From Acaryochloris sp. IP29b_bin.176 (GTDB lineage: Bacteria; Cyanobacteriota; Cyanobacteriia; Thermosynechococcales; Thermosynechococcaceae): DNA of 43,041 nt. Under the pieces are notes generated by a model that was not told the DNA's origin, did no database searches, and was given only the letters and a program-made list of their open reading frames with translations. The position numbers were made by a program, and so were the translations under genes. Positions 1,626 to 11,345 of this stretch are shown piece by piece; positions within the stretch are counted from its first letter, which is position 1; every line of letters begins with the position of its first letter. The stretch covers positions 1 through 43,041 of the forward strand of contig JANQPU010000304.1 of NCBI GenBank assembly GCA_028285315.1, in the 5' to 3' direction.

Positions 1626-2506
1626 TTATCTCTGTGAATTTCTTAATCTTTCGTATTTCTTGAAAATGTCATTCGTAATCTTAGTAGCTGCCTGATTGTG
1701 GCTTGCTAAACACAAAGCGTATAGTGCCGAATTAGTGGAGTTCCTCATTAAAACAGGTCTACTTACGTGAGGAAAAAGCGATTTTAGTTGCTCTGTATAA
1801 AGACTCGCCAACCATTCTGCTGGTATTGTCTCACGGCTTAGGCCAGTTTCTGTTGGATTGCCAAACAGATCCAGTTGTATTTCTGAATGCTCACGATATA
1901 TCTGCGTAATCCAATCTGTACTCCCCATCACTTTATTTAATTGTTCTATCACTTCTGGCATTGGAGTCTGATTTCTGGGTAGAAGACGAGTAACACCCAT
2001 GACCGAAAAATTGACGAAAATATCACAAGTTTTAGTGTCAGCTAGTTCTCGCACCGTTTCCCAGTCTACCTGTAAACCATAGGGGTCTAGGAAGACAAAT
2101 GCCCGTTGTTTAGAGAAATAAGGCAGTTTTGGAACTACTATTTGACACAAGATTTCATTGCAATCACCGAGGTGAACGTCAATTACACAGCCTGGAAACT
2201 CTTCGCGAAGCTCTTGTACACGTTCTACACGTCGAGAAGAGACATCAATAAACCAGTATCCGTCAAATTGTGGTTCTGTTTGCAGCGCTCTCAAGGGTGA
2301 GCCATCAATGTAACGCTGTTCATCTTGTTTTGCCCTAGGTCTAACAGAACCAGCAAAGGCATCAATGTAGTAGTATGCTCTCAGCCAACTTTTTTTTGCG
2401 CATTCATGATAACGGAATAGGCTTTGAGATATTTCGCTAGCAGATCTAACTTCTCTTCAGACCAGCTTCCGATGATATCTTCTCCTTCGTTACCTCGCCG
2501 ACTCAT
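1626..2506 (-). pseudogene. tcmP: Three-Cys-motif partner protein TcmP, frameshifted at an A8 run
   Basis: Two frames together give one TcmP protein. The ATG at 2506 starts MSRRGNEGEDIIGSW and runs about 40 codons to a poly-A run (T8 on the + strand, 2390-2397), after which the frame closes. The other frame continues with SWLRAYYYIDAFAGS and runs intact to 1626, including FIDVSSRRVERVQ and AFVFLDPYGLQVDW. One extra A (nine instead of eight) would join them as QKKSWLRAYYYIDAFAGS. The remaining open part (TTG at 2294) would lack the YIDAFAGS motif. TcmP is a known partner of DUF5131 proteins and its biochemical role is not established. The DAFAGS / FIDVS / FLDPYG series resembles motifs I, II and IV of class I methyltransferases (inference). 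It is the second gene of a two-gene operon, 13 bases after the DUF5131 stop. Confidence 0.65.
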
Positions 2507-2519
2507 GGTTTGACTCTCT

Positions 2520-3314
2520 TTAGCTCACAGAGGCTGAGTACTTGCGTTCTGGAGTACCTGTTTTTTGACGCCTAGAAACAATTTTTCGTTTTTCCCATCT
2601 ATGTACATGCTCGTACCAGGCTGATGGCATCTCATCCCAGATCTGGCCATCAAACACTCTGCCACCAGTCTTTGAATGGTAACCTCCCCATTGCTTAAAG
2701 AAAAACGCAGCTTCAGCCTCCCGCGTTTGGTAGTAAATCTCTCTGACCCATTTTGGACTTATCGGACGATGATGATGTCCAGACTCACCACCAACAATTA
2801 CCCAATCAATGCCTTCAAGATTCAGAGTCAGTTCTCCCAACAAAGGCTCACATGACAGGAATCTGATTTTTGCTGGTACTTGTCTGAGTGTATCAATTCT
2901 AGAAGTGTATTGTTGACTCTCTACAGATACACCCGCCCAAATGTTGTCACCCCACTCAAGTTGAGGTGCAAGCCTTGCTAGATTTTGATCACGCTTAGTC
3001 AGAATTTGATAAATATGCCACGGAGTTTCACGCATCACAGCAAAAACTTTTCGCAGGTATTCCAATGGCACATCTTGATGGAAAAGGTCGCTCATCGAGT
3101 TCACAAACACTCGGCTAGGAGAGCGCCATTTTTTCGGTTGCTCCAACCGATCAGGATGAAGTGTCAAATTGAAGCCTTGTGGGAAACTCTTCGGAAACCG
3201 TTTTGTGAGAGCTTCTGCATAGCAGTACCGACAGCCAGGACTCACCCTACTACAACCAGTGGTTGGGTTCCAAGTCTTGTCAGTCCATTCAATACCAGTT
3301 TTGCTGCTTGACAT
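2520..3314 (-). CDS. DUF5131 / phage Gp37-Gp68 family three-Cys protein
   Basis: A 264-residue protein of the DUF5131 (phage Gp37/Gp68) family. The N-terminus IEWTDKTWNPTTGC begins the hallmark three-cysteine motif with Cys21, Cys28 and Cys31 (CX6CX2C, ending GCRYCYAE), which resembles an iron-sulfur or radical-SAM type cluster site. Further recognisable segments are FVNSMSDLFH, LTKRDQN, WAGVSVE, FLSCEPLLG and VIVGGESG, then FFFKQWGG near the C-terminus. The family is encoded next to TcmP in many bacteria and some phages; the function of the pair is unknown to me. Length is normal and the frame intact, so this partner looks functional while the next gene is frameshifted. It appears to be transcribed from a promoter directly abutting its ATG. 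The cluster and radical-SAM comparison is inference. Confidence 0.85.
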   Translation of the reverse strand: MSSSKTGIEWTDKTWNPTTGCSRVSPGCRYCYAEALTKRFPKSFPQGFNLTLHPDRLEQPKKWRSPSRVFVNSMSDLFHQDVPLEYLRKVFAVMRETPWHIYQILTKRDQNLARLAPQLEWGDNIWAGVSVESQQYTSRIDTLRQVPAKIRFLSCEPLLGELTLNLEGIDWVIVGGESGHHHRPISPKWVREIYYQTREAEAAFFFKQWGGYHSKTGGRVFDGQIWDEMPSAWYEHVHRWEKRKIVSRRQKTGTPERKYSASVS

Positions 3315-4751: not shown

Positions 4752-4934
4752 CTAAGTCAAGTCTCCGAAAGCTGGCCTCAGGTCAAGCTCCAACACCCCA
4801 TTACGGCTTGTGTGTAGCTTTGGACGCTTGACCTGAGGCTTAGGGGCTGTTTGGGTTTGACCACGACCGCATCTTGAAAGCAGTACAGAACCCGCACTAC
4901 TGCTGCACAAGGCTAGAAATTGCCTACGTCGCAT
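4752..4934 (-). pseudogene. Tat leader and N-terminus of the multicopper oxidase, separated by a one-base deletion
   Basis: Sixty codons start MRRRQFLALCSSSAGSVLLS, a twin-arginine export signal (RRRQFL), with a possible lipobox-like LLSRC, then a linker and NGVLELDLRPAFGDLT before a TAG. Adding one T in the minus-strand run before the stop changes ACT TAG to ACT TTA and reads GDLTLGGETMNLLAYNGQIP, straight into the oxidase. The break is thus a single-base loss near 4752-4755, or a sequencing error. A strong AGGAGGGG lies about 7 bases before the ATG. Family knowledge: such oxidases are exported folded by Tat, so the break should strand the enzyme in the cytoplasm. Confidence 0.75.
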
Positions 4935-4984: not shown

Positions 4985-5018
4985 ATTAGGGCACAAGATT
5001 ATGAGATTAGGATGATAT
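4985..5018 (-). promoter_or_regulatory. Response-regulator box and promoter of the multicopper oxidase
   Basis: Minus strand: ATATCAT (5018-5012), four bases, ATCTCAT (5007-5001), ten bases, then a -10-like CCTAAT (4990-4985). The two heptamers are 11 bp apart, one helical turn, as expected for a tandem OmpR-family response-regulator dimer replacing a -35 box. The same arrangement, with the shared string ATCTCATAAT, precedes the RND operon at 5759-5792. From memory it also resembles the TTTCAT-N5-TTTCAT site described for cyanobacterial CopR. Confidence 0.55.
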
Positions 5019-5066
5019 CTCTTCGTGCAGCAAGCACTTTGTGCCAAGCCAGGGTGGATAGTAGCC

Positions 5067-5588
5067 TTAGGAATAATGTTCTGCAAATACGGTAGTCTGC
5101 CCTGCCTCATCAAATGTGAATACAGAATAGGGTTCTTTGATATTCCCTGACTCCACCCCCGGTGATCCAATGGGCATTCCAGGGACGGCTATACCTGCGA
5201 CATCAGACTTCTTAGCTAGTAACCGTTTAACATCAGCAGCGGGAATATGGCCTTCAATTACGTAACCATTTGCGATCGCAGTATGGCAAGACGCTAAATC
5301 ATCCGGTACATTATGCTCCCGCTTTACACCTTCTAGATCCTCAGTGATATTATCTTGAACCTGGAATCCGTGAGCCTTCATATGCTCTATCCAAACCCCG
5401 CAACAACCACAGGTGGGGCTACGAAAGGCCGTGATTTTCAATGCTTCAGGGGGAAGGTTTTCTGCGATTGCAGGGTGATGCATTGGTTTGGGAGCAACCG
5501 CAGAATAGACGCCTACACCGACGCCGCCTGTCACTAGAATTGCAGCTCCGATACGCAACCAAGACTGTTGGAAAAGAGTTTTTATCAT
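5067..5588 (-). CDS. DUF411 metal-binding protein, membrane-anchored or exported
   Basis: 173 residues with an N-terminal hydrophobic helix (about residues 11-31, LRIGAAILVTGGVGVGVYSA) acting as a signal peptide or anchor, followed by PKPMHHPAIAENLP and a DUF411 domain. The domain carries the hallmark SPTCGCCGVWIEHM (the CGCC pair likely coordinates metal), then ASCHTAIANGYVIEGHIPA and AVPGMPIGSPGVE, both typical of the family. DUF411 proteins are encoded next to copper and other metal-resistance genes; a precise biochemical role is not settled. It is transcribed toward the oxidase, but the oxidase has its own box downstream of this stop. It diverges from the RND operon across a 254-base promoter region. 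Confidence 0.88.
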   Translation of the reverse strand: MIKTLFQQSWLRIGAAILVTGGVGVGVYSAVAPKPMHHPAIAENLPPEALKITAFRSPTCGCCGVWIEHMKAHGFQVQDNITEDLEGVKREHNVPDDLASCHTAIANGYVIEGHIPAADVKRLLAKKSDVAGIAVPGMPIGSPGVESGNIKEPYSVFTFDEAGQTTVFAEHYS

Positions 5589-5652
5589 TGTTTAATTTGT
5601 CGAATATTTGATTGACATCGAGATTGAATCGGTTGCGATGTCTGTTAGCTCT

Positions 5653-5684
5653 AGTATAGCCACATCCACCCCCAAAAGTGTCAA
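5653..5684 (-). promoter_or_regulatory. Candidate long-spacer promoter for the DUF411 gene
   Basis: Minus strand: a perfect -35 TTGACA (5684-5679) and a good -10 TATACT (5658-5653) separated by 20 bases. Spacers of 19-20 bp are characteristic of MerR/CueR-activated metal promoters. However, the spacer here (G-rich, no inverted repeat) does not show the usual dyad. The predicted leader is about 58 bases. Confidence 0.35.
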
Positions 5685-5758
5685 GCTTCTTCAGTCAGAA
5701 TATATTTCTGCTATGGGTTTCAAGAAATTCAGCACTGTTAAAAAAGATGAATATTCCT

Positions 5759-5792
5759 ATCTCATTCTGATCTCATAATTGCTATTTATAAT
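5759..5792 (+). promoter_or_regulatory. Response-regulator box and promoter of the RND efflux operon
   Basis: ATCTCAT (5759-5765), TCTG, ATCTCAT (5770-5776), ten bases, then a consensus -10 TATAAT (5787-5792). There is no good -35 and the repeats occupy its place, which is the layout of an activator-dependent OmpR-family promoter. The element matches the one before the multicopper oxidase in repeat sequence, 11-bp phasing and distance to the -10. Confidence 0.6.
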
Positions 5793-5842: not shown

Positions 5843-7627
5843 ATGGATCACGATAATGTTGAATCTAACCCTACGGAATCAGAACGCTTCAATTCCTTAT
5901 TAGCTAACGTCGAGGAGACCGAGGAATCTAAGAGCAGTGGAGATGCTCCCCAAATGAGTCATCGCTCTAGTTTTCGTCCCTTTCAGAGCCTATTGGCCTT
6001 GGGTATTTTCATCGTGCTTTCAGGTGGTATTTGGATAGCTGTTAAACACTTTGGTGGAACAGCAATGGCGGGCATGGACCATGGCACCATGGGCGACGGT
6101 TCTATGGATCATAGCAACATGTCCATGGAAGACATGATGGCGGTCAAGGGGGACCATAATGCTGTTCCCGTGCAGGTGGAAAAAATTCGTCCCAGCGTGT
6201 TGCAGGAGACCGTTAACTATACCGGGACGGTCTATCCCTACCTAGAAGTCACCGTTTATCCTCGCATTGCAGGGCAACTCAGAGACTATTCCATCTATCC
6301 GGGTGATCGCGTTCAGCAGGGCCAACTCATTGCCCAACTTGACGCATTAGAGCGGCGGACAGAACTAGAAGAGGCTCGGGCCGAGCGGAATGTTATGCAG
6401 GAAGTGCTGGCCGCCAACAAAGTTCAATTAGTAGAGCAACAACGCGAAATTGACCGTATGGTTGCTGAACTAGATTATATGAAGCTCAAGGCCAAGCGAT
6501 ACAAGGACTTGGTCGCTGGAGGAGCCTTAGCTCAAAATGATTATGATGCGGTTGCAGCGGAGGTTTCAGCCAAAGAATCTGCAATCTCTGGGGCTAAAAC
6601 GAGGCTAGTGCGGATGACAGCAGAGCTAGGGAGAGACCAGGCCATGATTAGCCAATCTCAAGCAAAAGCAAACACAGCAGTTGTCATGGCCCGCTACACA
6701 GCGATTACTGCACCTATCAGCGGGATTGTTCAGTCCCGTATGGCTGATCCAGGGGTGGTGGTCCAACCAGGCATGGGGGTGCTCAAAATTGGCGACTATA
6801 GCCGAGTGCGGTTGCGGGCGAACGTCGCCCAAGCTGATGCAGTTGGCATAGGTAAAGGGACCCGTGTCAAAGCCATGATTCCAGGCACGAAGATGAAGCC
6901 GATTACAGGTGAAATTACCAGTATTTTCCCCAGCACTGATCCCCAAACGCGCACAGTCACTGTTGAGGCCGTCGTTAACAATCCTGAGGATCAATTGCTC
7001 TCAGGACAGTTTCTAGAGATGCAGATTATCAAGGCCACCAAACCTGCAACATTGTCAGTTCCCCAGACCGCTTTGCATCAGTTTCAGGGAAAACCAGCGG
7101 TGTGGGTAATACAAGGCAGTGGTGAAGCCGCAACTGCTGAGCGTCGCATGGTAAAGCAAGGTGTAGTAAGTGGCGATCGCGTAGAAATCCTGCAAGGCTT
7201 AAGACCTAATGATCTTGTTATCGTCACAGGTTTTTCGCGTGTGCAAAACGGCTCGAAAATTGCCATGGTCGATGGGAAGGGAGAGTCTGTTGTTTCCTTG
7301 TCAGCTCCAACGGAGAGGACGGCGACCATTAAGCTGATCAATCCCAAGACGAAAGCAGTGAAGGCGGGGACTGCCGAGCTGATTCTGCAAGTACTCGATC
7401 CCAGGTCTCAATCTCCCTTAGCGGTCGATCAGTTGGTGGTAGATGTCACTATGCCAATGAAAAACATGGCTCCTATGACCACCATGGTAGACCTCAAAGC
7501 CTTACCAAAACCTGGTCAGTTCCGAGTGAAGACCCACTTTGGAATGAAGGGAGATTGGGTGATTAAAGCCCAAGTCAAGGATGCAAAGCATAAGGGACGT
7601 GCCCAGTTCAAGCTCACGGCTCAATAG
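5843..7627 (+). CDS. RND efflux periplasmic adaptor (CusB/HlyD family) with C-terminal FixH-like domain
   Basis: 594 residues. A cytoplasmic N-terminal tail of about 45 residues is unusual for adaptors. It is followed by one membrane helix (about 50-68), a Met/His segment (GMDHGTMGDGSMDHSNMSME, about 77-98) likely to bind Cu(I), a lipoyl/barrel-sandwich half, a long helical hairpin (about 175-290), the second lipoyl half (ITAPISGIVQSRM) and beta-barrel domains. A C-terminal domain (about 505-594) contains DVTMPMKNMAPM and KTHFGMKGDW. That last domain is the same fold type (FixH/YtkA-like) as the next gene product. The adaptor bridges the RND pump to an outer-membrane channel, which is not encoded here. 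No clear Shine-Dalgarno precedes the ATG. Metal specificity for copper is inferred from the motif and neighbours. Confidence 0.88.
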   Translation: MDHDNVESNPTESERFNSLLANVEETEESKSSGDAPQMSHRSSFRPFQSLLALGIFIVLSGGIWIAVKHFGGTAMAGMDHGTMGDGSMDHSNMSMEDMMAVKGDHNAVPVQVEKIRPSVLQETVNYTGTVYPYLEVTVYPRIAGQLRDYSIYPGDRVQQGQLIAQLDALERRTELEEARAERNVMQEVLAANKVQLVEQQREIDRMVAELDYMKLKAKRYKDLVAGGALAQNDYDAVAAEVSAKESAISGAKTRLVRMTAELGRDQAMISQSQAKANTAVVMARYTAITAPISGIVQSRMADPGVVVQPGMGVLKIGDYSRVRLRANVAQADAVGIGKGTRVKAMIPGTKMKPITGEITSIFPSTDPQTRTVTVEAVVNNPEDQLLSGQFLEMQIIKATKPATLSVPQTALHQFQGKPAVWVIQGSGEAATAERRMVKQGVVSGDRVEILQGLRPNDLVIVTGFSRVQNGSKIAMVDGKGESVVSLSAPTERTATIKLINPKTKAVKAGTAELILQVLDPRSQSPLAVDQLVVDVTMPMKNMAPMTTMVDLKALPKPGQFRVKTHFGMKGDWVIKAQVKDAKHKGRAQFKLTAQ

Positions 7628-7686
7628 AGAGTCAATAAATCTACTGCAATTCCCCAAACAAGACCAACATCTATGTGAGGACAGAC

Positions 7687-8166
7687 ATGAAGAACATTTT
7701 TGTGCCCCTCTCCCTGATCAGTATGCTGTTATTTGCCTGTAGTTCTCCATCAGGAGAACAAACTGCCAAGACATCGGATCATGCAGACGCTTTGCCAGAG
7801 AAGGCTGAGACTCCTGCCAATAGTAAAACGGACGGCATGGACCACAGCAAAATGCCAGATACAGAGCAGGCAAAGTCATCTAAGGATATTCATCTGGTGA
7901 GCCCAGAATCGGGTGAAGTGCCCATGGGCGATGCCGAAATTGTGGTTCACGTCGACAGGGAAAATCTTACACCAGATGATGTCTCCGTCGAAGTGTCAAT
8001 GCCGATGGAAGGCCAAGAAGATATGACATCTCTAGCACTAGTTGAATCCGGTGATCAAGCCCAAGAGTTCAAAATTAAAACTAACTTTGGTATGGCAGGT
8101 CCATGGATGGTTTCAGTGAAAGCTAAGGATGCTGAACCTGCAACCCTAGCCTTTAATGTCAAATAA
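7687..8166 (+). CDS. FixH/YtkA-like domain lipoprotein
   Basis: 159 residues from the ATG at 7687, chosen over the GTG at 7675 because GAGG lies 7 bases before the ATG and the protein then begins directly with a lipoprotein signal (MKNIFVPLSLISMLLFACSS; lipobox LFAC). A charged linker carries DGMDHSKMPD, echoing the Met/His motif of the adaptor. The C-terminal domain (about 75-159) has VEVSMPMEGQEDMT and KTNFGMAGPWMVSVKAKD. It aligns by eye with the C-terminal domain of the preceding adaptor. It likely sits at the membrane facing the periplasm and hands metal to, or tunes, the RND pump. This is inference from context; the domain family itself has no settled reaction. Confidence 0.8.
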   Translation: MKNIFVPLSLISMLLFACSSPSGEQTAKTSDHADALPEKAETPANSKTDGMDHSKMPDTEQAKSSKDIHLVSPESGEVPMGDAEIVVHVDRENLTPDDVSVEVSMPMEGQEDMTSLALVESGDQAQEFKIKTNFGMAGPWMVSVKAKDAEPATLAFNVK

Positions 8167-8171
8167 ACTGG

Positions 8172-11100
8172 ATGAAAGAGTTTCTCACCCGCTGGTCCAT
8201 TAAGCATCCGGTCATTGTCGCCGCGCTCTATATCGGCATCTTAATCCTGTCTCTTTTGGTCTTGCTGGGTCTGTCAGTGAGAATGATGCCCTATGTGGAA
8301 AGTCCATTAGTGGCCGTGATTACTCAAGCCCCTGGCACCCCACCAGAGGAGGTAGAAGCCTACATCACAAAGCCTCTTGAACAGCGGATGTCAGTGCTGG
8401 AGGATGTGCGTTTTGTTCGCTCAACGTCGCAGCAGAATTTATCCCTGATAACGGTGCAGTTTGGCTGGGGTGGCAACCTTGATAAGGCGGTCCAGTCTGT
8501 CCAAAGTCTGATGAACGCGGCGGAAGGCGACACGGAGCTGCAAGGTCTAAATGCCCGTTCCTATTGGGTATTGCCCATTGACCCATTAAATCGCCCGGTG
8601 TTGACTTTGGCACTGACGGGAGACCAGTGGGATCCAGTGAAATTGCGGGAGTTTGCTGATAATACCTTGGTGGATCGGCTCACCCAGGTGGATCAAGTAC
8701 AAGCGGTTTCGATTCTAGGAGGCTATCGTCGTCAGCTCCAGGTGATCGTGGATCGGCAAAAATTGGGAGCCTATGGTCTATCTATTGTCCAAGTGCGTGA
8801 TGCCCTTGACCGCAACAATCTCAGCCAAGGCTCTGGCATTCTCACACAAGGGGATAGCGAAATCCTAGTGCGTACCGACGAGCGAGTCCAAAATGCTGAG
8901 GTATTACTGGCCTATCCCCTGCTAGAGCAACAGGGTCAAGTCGTATACTTGCGGGATGTTGCCACAGTTCGAGATACCTTTGAAGAACGCCGCAGTGGTT
9001 ATCGCTACAACGGCCAAGCGGCTCTAGCCGTAAATGTGATTCAAAAACCGGATTCGAGTTCTCCGGCGGTGATTAAGCGGGTACGAGCCGAGCTAGAAAA
9101 AATCCAACAGGAATATCCAGGATTGGAATTTCAAGAAGCTTACGATAACTCCTTCTTGGTCAATATTATTTTGCAGAGCACATTTAAGGAGTTACTGATC
9201 AGTGTTCTTTTAGCGGGTGGAGTAATCTTAATTTTTTTAGAGGATTTCCGTGCCACGGCACTGATCATGATTTCCATCCCTACCTCGTTGGCGTTATCCA
9301 CGCTACCCTTTGGCCCCCTACACATGTCTCTCAACTCCTCCACGTTGATTGGTATGACAATGGCCATCGGTAAGTTGGTCGATGATTCCATCATTGTGAT
9401 CGATGCCATTGAACAAAAACTGCGTCAGGGTTTACGCCCTCTCCAAGCTGCTATTAAAGGCACAGGAGAGGTGTTTTTAGCCAGTGTTGCCGCTAGTTGT
9501 GTCATGGTGGCAGCGTTGCTGCCCACTATGCTATCGGGAGGACTGACAGGGCTGATGTTTGTGGGCCTGGTGTGGCCGATGGTTTTTGCCTTTGTGGCAT
9601 CAGTACTCGTATCAGTGACGCTGGTACCGTTGCTAGCGGTCGTGTTCTATCACGCTCGCCCCTCTACCAATCGCCGCACCTGGCTGCAAAAATTACTCTC
9701 TCCGGTAAACTATGGTTTTCGGCAACTCGTGCGGGGTTATAGTTGGCTGCTGCATTTGGCCCTCTGCAACCGGGAAATTGCGTTGGCAGTCCTGGCTTCT
9801 ACGATGGTATTGGCGATCGCCCTCTATCCCCTCGTCCCCCAAGAAATGATGCCTCTAGGCGATTCGGGGCAGTTTATGGTCACTTTAGAAATGGAGGCAG
9901 GCAGTTCCTTTGCCAAGACCGATTCCAGTACTGCTCAACTTGAAGTGCTGTTGCTCCAGCAGCCAGAGGTGGAAAAGATCTCATCTCAGGTGGGCTACGA
10001 GCTAACCCGCAACAGTACGTATTTCACTGGGTACAGTATGGGCAATGCTTATACTGCCTCGCTGATTGTGACCTTGAAACTAGCGCGCGATCGCGACATT
10101 TGGCAAGTCATGGATGCAGTTCATAATGATTCGCTGGCAACGATTCCAGGCATTCGGCGGCTGGCGCTCAAGGAAATGGGGGTGGATGTAATGGCAACCT
10201 CTGCGGCCCCGATTCAGCTAGCAGTCTATGGTGAGGATCTCGACACGCTCCATCATCTTGCCAACGATGTACTGCGAATTGCCGAAGATACGCCAGGGTT
10301 GATGATGGCCCAAACCAGTGCGGCCATGACTCAACCGGAGTTAATGCTCAATATTGATCGCCGCCGTGCCCAAGAATTGGGTCTGAATGTGGAAGCAATT
10401 GCCACCCAAGCTCGGTTTGCCCTTAATGGTGGCCTGACCCAGCGCTCCTATAATCGTCCTAATTTGCGCCAGAACTCCATTTTAATCCGCTACAACGAGG
10501 CAGATCGGGAGACGACTGCTGATTTAGAGAGTATCTACCTGACAACTCCGAATGGTGAACAGATTCCGCTGAATACGCTGGTGCAGCTTGAGTATCGCCA
10601 AGGTCCAACCCTAATTGAGCATATCAACGGTAAACGGGTGGTCTATGTGAATGGCTACTATCGGCGCAATGGACCAGCATCTATGGATTTAAGTATGGCC
10701 GTTGCGATGCGTGCTGGCGCGGAACTAGAGGTGCCGCCCGGCTATGGCATCGACTCCATGGGTGACATGACAGACATGATGATTGAGTTCGAGCGTTTAC
10801 TCAAAGGTCTCCTCGTTTCCCTAGTGTTGATCTATATCATCTTGGTCATTCAGTTCAACTCCTTTATTCACCCCTTGGTGATGATGTTATCGGTGCCGCT
10901 ACAGCTTGTGGGCGTGTTTGGAGGATTGATCCTCGCTAATCAAACCCTATCCACAGTTTCAATCTTGGGCATTATTATTCTGTCTGGTTTGTCTTTATCC
11001 GCCTCGATTTTACTTCTGGAGTTGATTCTTACAAAGCGACAAGAAGGCGTTCCTCGGGCAGAAGCGATCGCCCAGGCAGGACCTGTTCGACTTAAGGCGA

Positions 11101-11345
11101 TTGTGATGACGACGTTTACAACGTTAATTGTGGTAGTGCGGTTGGCATTCTTCCCAGAGATTGGTTCTGATGCCTATTCTTCAATCGCAACAGTAATTTT
11201 AGGTGGGCTAGTAATTTCAACTTTATTGACACTGATTGTGGTGCCGATTGTCTATACATTTGTGGATGATGCCATCATATTGATTCAAAAGTTATCGCGT
11301 ACTCAGCGACGACAACGAAAGTTACCTCAAGTGGATAAGCCCTAA
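8172..11345 (+). CDS. RND efflux transporter permease, heavy-metal type by context
   Basis: 1057 residues, normal RND length, starting five bases after the lipoprotein stop. The architecture is complete: N-terminal helix (VIVAALYIGILILSLLVLLG), porter domain with AVITQAPGTPPEEVE, and a first helix bundle including ISIPTSLALSTLPFG. Helix 4 carries GKLVDDSIIVIDAIEQ with the paired Asp of the proton relay. A second periplasmic half contains VDVMATSAAPIQLAVYG, and a second helix bundle follows. The trimeric inner-membrane pump expels substrates by proton antiport. The DVMATSAAPI segment resembles the Met-bearing porter segment of CusA, favouring a copper-type substrate. The VDD of helix 4 resembles drug-type pumps more than the CzcA pattern, so the substrate is not certain. 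Confidence 0.9.
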   Translation: MKEFLTRWSIKHPVIVAALYIGILILSLLVLLGLSVRMMPYVESPLVAVITQAPGTPPEEVEAYITKPLEQRMSVLEDVRFVRSTSQQNLSLITVQFGWGGNLDKAVQSVQSLMNAAEGDTELQGLNARSYWVLPIDPLNRPVLTLALTGDQWDPVKLREFADNTLVDRLTQVDQVQAVSILGGYRRQLQVIVDRQKLGAYGLSIVQVRDALDRNNLSQGSGILTQGDSEILVRTDERVQNAEVLLAYPLLEQQGQVVYLRDVATVRDTFEERRSGYRYNGQAALAVNVIQKPDSSSPAVIKRVRAELEKIQQEYPGLEFQEAYDNSFLVNIILQSTFKELLISVLLAGGVILIFLEDFRATALIMISIPTSLALSTLPFGPLHMSLNSSTLIGMTMAIGKLVDDSIIVIDAIEQKLRQGLRPLQAAIKGTGEVFLASVAASCVMVAALLPTMLSGGLTGLMFVGLVWPMVFAFVASVLVSVTLVPLLAVVFYHARPSTNRRTWLQKLLSPVNYGFRQLVRGYSWLLHLALCNREIALAVLASTMVLAIALYPLVPQEMMPLGDSGQFMVTLEMEAGSSFAKTDSSTAQLEVLLLQQPEVEKISSQVGYELTRNSTYFTGYSMGNAYTASLIVTLKLARDRDIWQVMDAVHNDSLATIPGIRRLALKEMGVDVMATSAAPIQLAVYGEDLDTLHHLANDVLRIAEDTPGLMMAQTSAAMTQPELMLNIDRRRAQELGLNVEAIATQARFALNGGLTQRSYNRPNLRQNSILIRYNEADRETTADLESIYLTTPNGEQIPLNTLVQLEYRQGPTLIEHINGKRVVYVNGYYRRNGPASMDLSMAVAMRAGAELEVPPGYGIDSMGDMTDMMIEFERLLKGLLVSLVLIYIILVIQFNSFIHPLVMMLSVPLQLVGVFGGLILANQTLSTVSILGIIILSGLSLSASILLLELILTKRQEGVPRAEAIAQAGPVRLKAIVMTTFTTLIVVVRLAFFPEIGSDAYSSIATVILGGLVISTLLTLIVVPIVYTFVDDAIILIQKLSRTQRRQRKLPQVDKP

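Follow-up and report, generated by a model that had tools for sequence, protein, structure and literature searches.

Candidate RppA/CopR-type promoters and a lineage-specific operator variant in a metal island of Acaryochloris

Why should a multicopper oxidase gene and an RND efflux operon, read from opposite strands of one island, carry the same promoter design, and which regulator would read it? The question is posed by a 43,041-nt stretch of DNA (the window), which is the whole of one contig (C229) in the 5.35-Mb draft genome of Acaryochloris sp. IP29b_bin.176 (438 contigs). A preliminary description had proposed that two copper-type transcription units share a tandem OmpR-family site that replaces a -35 box. 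The explanation reached here, with a probability of roughly four in five, is that the sites are RppA operators through which an RppB-RppA pair would activate both units, and that operator and recognition helix have changed together in this lineage.

Two promoters and the genes around them

From left to right the region holds a fragment of an RppB kinase, a multicopper oxidase gene and a DUF411 gene on the minus strand, and genes for an adaptor, a YtkA-like protein and an RND pump on the plus strand. The features are as follows.

1 to 1312, plus: RppB-type sensor histidine kinase (NF041735, 608 bits; cut-off 400), cut by the left edge of the window, the 5' end being on contig C285
3487 to 4740, minus: multicopper oxidase body, 417 aa (Pfam Cu-oxidase_2, Cu-oxidase_3 and Cu-oxidase)
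4752 to 4934, minus: oxidase leader reading frame (MRRRQFL...), out of frame with the body
4985 to 4990, minus: oxidase -10-like hexamer CCTAAT, after AATCTTGTGC, with the TG of an extended -10 upstream
5001 to 5018, minus: candidate oxidase operator, ATATCAT (5018-5012) and ATCTCAT (5007-5001), spacer CCTA
5067 to 5588, minus: DUF411 protein (PF04214, 8.3e-26), between the two operators
5759 to 5776, plus: candidate RND operon operator, ATCTCAT (5759-5765) and ATCTCAT (5770-5776), spacer TCTG
5787 to 5792, plus: RND operon -10 box TATAAT, separated from the second heptamer by the 10 nt AATTGCTATT
5843 to 7627, plus: RND periplasmic adaptor with a Met/His-rich N-terminus and a YtkA domain
7675 to 8166, plus: YtkA/FixH-like protein (PF13115)
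8172 to 11345, plus: RND pump, 1057 aa (PF00873; CusA/CzcA model 345 bits, cut-off 701)

Reading the sequence confirmed both sites at the positions and on the strands first given for them, and in both copies the heptamers repeat every 11 bp, with 10 nt from the second heptamer to the hexamer and an AAT within those ten bases. With start codons at 4934 for the oxidase leader and 5843 for the adaptor, the distance from the end of the hexamer to the start codon is 50 nt in both promoters. Of the two -10 boxes originally proposed, TATAAT stands, and the RND promoter has the pattern.A...T 10 nt downstream; the oxidase hexamer CCTAAT occupies the right position and is preceded by the extended -10 TG, but has C in second place, where A is usual. 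The exact pattern ATMTCATN4ATCTCAT occurs twice in the window as against none in 100 shuffles, and a scan of the whole 5.35-Mb genome for the spaced repeat returned just these two copies, with none for the reversed pattern. When two mismatches are allowed a window count of two is not unusual, being reached by 20 of 100 shuffles, and a search for the repeat plus -10 box with three mismatches was discarded as swamped (122 matches against 96 in the control). By eye, no upstream block is better conserved among three Acaryochloris-type sequences than that of the RND promoter, and orthologous blocks occur in Acaryochloris sp. 'Moss Beach' and in another Acaryochloris genome, G001. The 40-nt oxidase promoter is identical in both island copies of G001, which is weak evidence since the whole region averages 98% identity.

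The oxidase gene is frame-shifted, its leader and body lying in different frames; one G001 copy is intact (492 aa, L236 6224-7702), and the second is also split. Pfam multicopper oxidase domains are present in the body; that frame alone scores 208 bits on the CueO model NF008205, below the cut-off of 525. The pump likewise falls below the cut-off of the CusA/CzcA heavy-metal RND model TIGR00914, and below those of all RND models among the matches listed, multidrug models included. For the pump, the earlier label of copper-type thus rests on context; copper is the likely metal, given the oxidase and the kinship to CopRS discussed below. The closest named match of the adaptor is that of the Moss Beach plasmid pMB03, at 75% identity, and the G001 adaptor is 76% identical.

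Other features of the island can be noted in passing. Two minus-strand ORFs at 1626-3314, between kinase and oxidase, which are taken to resemble a TcmP and Gp37/Gp68-type pair, form an apparent insertion. Upstream of the DUF411 gene lies TTGACA-N20-TATACT (5653-5684, minus), conserved in both G001 islands, and its long spacer is reminiscent of MerR-type promoters. In the presumed periplasmic part of RppB/CopS kinases, two cysteines are invariant in all nine compared, the window kinase (1-1312) included, and are possible metal ligands.

The proposed regulator and its promoter type across the phylum

The left-edge kinase, which the preliminary description had singled out as the obvious controller, passes the curated RppB cut-off, and the regulator that it had placed just upstream of the window was found on contig C285. 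That contig ends in the same 63 bases with which the window begins, an identity established by script for 60 of them and visually for the other three. On it a MerR-type gene, assigned by look, is followed by rppA and the start of the kinase.

L098 843 to 1259, minus: MerR-type gene (by look), directly before rppA on C285
L098 142 to 837, minus: rppA on C285, 231 aa

On this evidence of sequence and gene order, the predicted RppA partner of the window RppB is the gene on C285. Its product shares 86% identity with its Moss Beach counterpart and scores 383.9 bits against a cut-off of 250, the sole gene above 340 bits among the matches listed for this genome; a second RppA-like gene, on C388, reaches 269 bits, above the family cut-off. 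The matrix scan described below found no repeat operator before the merR-rppA genes of this genome, unlike the G001 copies.

Among relatives found by protein rather than by motif, the commonest form of the site is TTTCATCYTRATTTCAT, here called canonical, of which there are 90 exact copies in 54 of 386 cyanobacterial genomes as against 1 for the reversed control, and none in the strict form in the genome analysed here. At 83 of 89 canonical sites the second repeat is followed at exactly 10 nt by the pattern.A...T, which at the other spacings of 4-19 nt is present in 0-19% of them, so that the 10-nt distance seen in the window is itself conserved. Offsets 24 and 25 are T (73/89) and G (75/89), corresponding to an extended -10, and offsets 28 and 32 are A (86/89) and T (84/89); the search pattern placed no constraint on the -10 box or its TG, yet both are conserved. 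The promoter design, with its repeat spacing and its -10 box at exactly 10 nt, thus recurs across the phylum.

Genes for a strong RppA (above 340 bits; 90 such genes in 72 genomes) occur in 48 of the 54 site-bearing genomes versus 24 of the 332 others, leaving six of the 54 scanned with the motif and no strong RppA, and one lies within 10 kb of 59 of the 90 canonical sites; both sets of counts ignore shared ancestry. Of the remaining 31 sites, 7 are farther off on the contig of the RppA gene and 24 are on contigs without a strong RppA. Reading frames of 60 aa or longer begin 21-414 nt downstream of 81 of 89 canonical sites, and the 79 different ones include 20 DUF305 proteins, 16 RND adaptors, 7 DUF2808 proteins, 6 response regulators, 6 PALP matches, 5 RND pumps, 3 DUF411 proteins and 1 multicopper oxidase. 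PALP would be a surprising component of a metal regulon. In three genomes (loci L177, L192 and L195) canonical sites stand 21 nt before ORFs of 369 aa, which are probably among the six matches to this PLP-enzyme family.

A weight matrix built from 128 non-Acaryochloris sites ranked the two window sites first and second, at 26.0 and 19.9, with the next at 13.4. Among the loci of this genome that were examined, however, three others score at least as high as the RND site, so the matrix score alone does not single it out; a random-genome control that gave 0 sites in 5.35 Mb is too lenient, since three real loci match the RND score. A third candidate from this genome, TTTAATCTTGATCTCAT on C393, with.A...T at 10 nt and a matrix score of 17.5, was dropped, the downstream gene not looking metal-related. 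Both window sites are missed by a strict model trained on canonical sites (R1), whether it is run on the genome or on the window, probably because it has learned an invariant T at the position where C or A stands in this lineage.

Taken on their sequence, the two window sites are RppA/CopR-type promoters of cyanobacteria with putative regulator binding sites, and a promoter known from the cyanobacterial copper response is extended to Acaryochloris. The letters M and C in ATMTCAT and ATCTCAT are a lineage variant of ATTTCAT.

Operator variant and recognition helix in the Acaryochloris lineage

G001 holds 16 exact sites of the variant form ATMTCATYCTRATYTCAT, with none in the control, and the other 385 genomes of the phylum sample together hold 1 versus 4 in the control. 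Three of the G001 sites precede MerR-type genes with rppA next in line; rppB was read behind one of these rppA genes, and another is broken. Further sites lie before genes that by look are DUF2808-like or code for a multicopper oxidase of a second kind, and before the window-type oxidase and the RND operon. When sites were counted with the third heptamer bases left free, the first heptamer of 20 Acaryochloris-type sites had C in 14, A in 6 and T in none, and the second had C in 9 and T in 11; in 49 sites from 21 loci of other cyanobacteria, the third bases were T,T in 48 and T,G in one, so that T stood in the first heptamer of all 49. Most of these 21 loci had been chosen on the strength of their proteins (a canonical site was already known in L224 and L353), and the count excludes relatives that lack sites, L051, L052, L215 and L216 for example. 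Some of the Acaryochloris loci were fetched by the variant pattern with one mismatch, and ATTTCAT would therefore have appeared as well. The pattern.A...T at 10 nt is present in 15 of the 20 Acaryochloris-type sites. The genome G003 has a near-site and no strong RppA; G005 has an RppA of the Acaryochloris type described next, yet no variant site with up to one mismatch.

The helix SNVVAALMRQLRRKL is found in 7 of 107 RppA rows, namely in the RppA of this genome, that of Moss Beach, three from G001 and one each from G002 and G005. Position 199 of the other 100 is Gln (98) or Arg (2), and position 202 is Leu (99) or Arg (1). Conservation among the 100 reaches 95% or more in 74 columns, and the seven depart from it at exactly two of these, Gln199Leu and Leu202Gln, both in the recognition helix; if two changes fell randomly among the 74 columns, the chance of both lying in the helix would be 0.017. 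Eight further columns mark the clade of seven, at positions where the other RppAs vary more. The Leu199/Gln202 proteins form one clade (100/100, from a bootstrap that is not fully settled). Tree and column counts use 107 rows selected by the helix start (SN.V.A/P) and the receiver motif, with a few genes present twice (e.g. L223/L300, L224/L344); the first table gave no helix for weak paralogs, short loci, L339, L345 (partly unreadable) and L346, of which L339 was later found to be Gln/Leu and L346 to have a different helix.

Regulators of the same family with the Gln/Leu helix offer a comparison close at hand. At four of five such loci (G007, G008, G009 and contig C111 of G010) there are ATTTCAT-type sites with matrix scores above 17; the fifth, on G010 C17, has no such site on the matrix, and a Gln/Leu paralog in G001 has ATTTCATTCGTATTTTAT, a weak match, about 1 kb upstream. 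These patterns suggest, at the level of sequence, that the third base of the operator and the RppA helix co-evolved, and because the helix change is a single evolutionary event, the co-variation amounts to one data point. That an OmpR-family regulator altered its DNA code, Gln199Leu and Leu202Gln going with a shift from T to C or A across the whole metal regulon, the G001 regulator promoter included, is a claim for which the odds stand about even.

Alignment with E. coli K-12 PhoB and BasR, with residue numbers as counted by the authors, sets residue 202 opposite PhoB Arg201 and residue 199 opposite PhoB His198 and BasR His193. According to PMC3973317, PhoB Arg201 makes a bond to a guanine, and PmrA His193 and His195 are put forward as base readers. 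At the position of T or C/A in the heptamers of this study, the pho box CTGTCAT carries G, and it may be this third-position G that Arg201 bonds. One RppA (L298, from G055) has Arg at 202, as PhoB does. If the co-variation is causal, RppAs with Arg202, of which L298 is the one found, are predicted to read an operator whose third base is G, like the pho box, and the change would be a natural two-residue alteration of DNA specificity in a large response-regulator family, with both helix versions in G001. The new code, if real, would insulate the metal island, which is plasmid-borne in Moss Beach, from the other RppAs of the cell. Among the titles listed by literature searches outside most subscription journals, none dealt with a specificity change of RppA in Acaryochloris, a result of little weight.

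A proposed mechanism, its rivals and known systems

Site anatomy, conservation, co-location in genomes, regulator identity and co-variation are direct results, and they can be assembled into a provisional sequence of events. Under metal stress, presumably sensed by RppB, the kinase would phosphorylate RppA, two monomers of which would bind head to tail on the 11-bp repeat. The repeat would take the place of a -35 box, as first proposed, and the RppA dimer would contact RNA polymerase at a -10 box 10 nt farther downstream, thereby activating the efflux operon and the oxidase gene. In this lineage the third base has shifted from T to C or A in the first repeat and to C or T in the second, together with Gln199Leu and Leu202Gln, and the helix changes may have caused the operator change.

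Could another OmpR-family regulator read these sites, the adjacent RppA acting elsewhere? The genome has 71 matches to an RppA query, some to the receiver part only, and the regulator on C388 passes the family cut-off; the Synechocystis RppA motif, given as AAMAWCTCYYWCCCC in a 2026 review (PMC13421787), also differs from the window motif. The proximity of strong RppA genes to most canonical sites, the three G001 variant sites before merR-type genes and rppA, and the control of promoters of this design by CopR, itself an RppA by annotation, nevertheless make that arrangement improbable. A chance resemblance of two AT-rich promoter sites deserves far less credence still: the loose search, in which a fifth of shuffles reached two sites, would allow it, but the exact pattern appeared in no shuffle and nowhere else in the genome, and the RND block is conserved in orthologues.

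Parts of the RppA explanation face stronger challenges. The operator shift might reflect neutral drift or base composition, unrelated to the helix, as only one clade displays it and T persists at the third base of the second heptamer in 11 of 20 sites. Against this, the first heptamer carries C or A in all 20, so the shift is not a gain of GC only, and the two conserved columns that changed, of 74, both lie in the helix; drift is therefore considered possible and rather doubtful. A similarly unlikely reading is that the oxidase site is a relic, promoter and gene decaying together without function: the leader is frame-shifted, the -10 hexamer lacks its A, and one of the two G001 oxidase copies is also split, whereas the same 40-nt promoter precedes the intact G001 copy, an argument weakened by the high identity of the whole region.

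Set beside known systems, the RppA operators proposed here share the 7-4-7 layout of the PhoB box and the PhoP sites of Mycobacterium tuberculosis, where a tandem dimer binds 7-bp direct repeats separated by a 4-bp spacer (PMC4832192). The repeats of those systems are CTGTCAT or TCACAGC, unlike the window heptamers, and PhoB reads with Arg201 where RppA of the window lineage has Gln202. The nickel system NrsR/RppA (sll0797) of Synechocystis bears the same family name, RppA, as the window-lineage regulator, and PMC4182526 reports a site resembling that of CopR in the interval between nrsRS and nrsBACD; the RppA motif given in the 2026 review (PMC13421787) is a different one.

The closest relation is to CopRS of Synechocystis PCC 6803, which the preliminary description had already likened to the window sites from the CopR motif, and whose genes on pSYSX are annotated rppA and rppB. 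A study of the copper response describes the CopR site as TTCATN4-5TTCAT and concludes that control by CopRS is limited to copMRS and copBAC (PMC4182526). The copM promoter, TTTCATCCTGATTTCAT-N10-CAGACT, is an exact canonical match, and the copB promoter, TTTCATCTTGGTTTCAT-N10-AACACT, is canonical with one mismatch; in both, as in the window promoters, the tandem hexamers recur at an 11-bp interval and a -10-like hexamer follows after 10 nt. The Synechocystis repeats read TTTCAT where those of the window read TMTCAT/TYTCAT, and CopR carries Gln199 and Leu202, unlike RppA of the window lineage. In Synechocystis copM, a DUF305 gene, heads the regulator operon, whereas in Acaryochloris a MerR-type gene precedes rppA on C285. 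In both, an RppA/RppB-type two-component system stands beside RND efflux genes.
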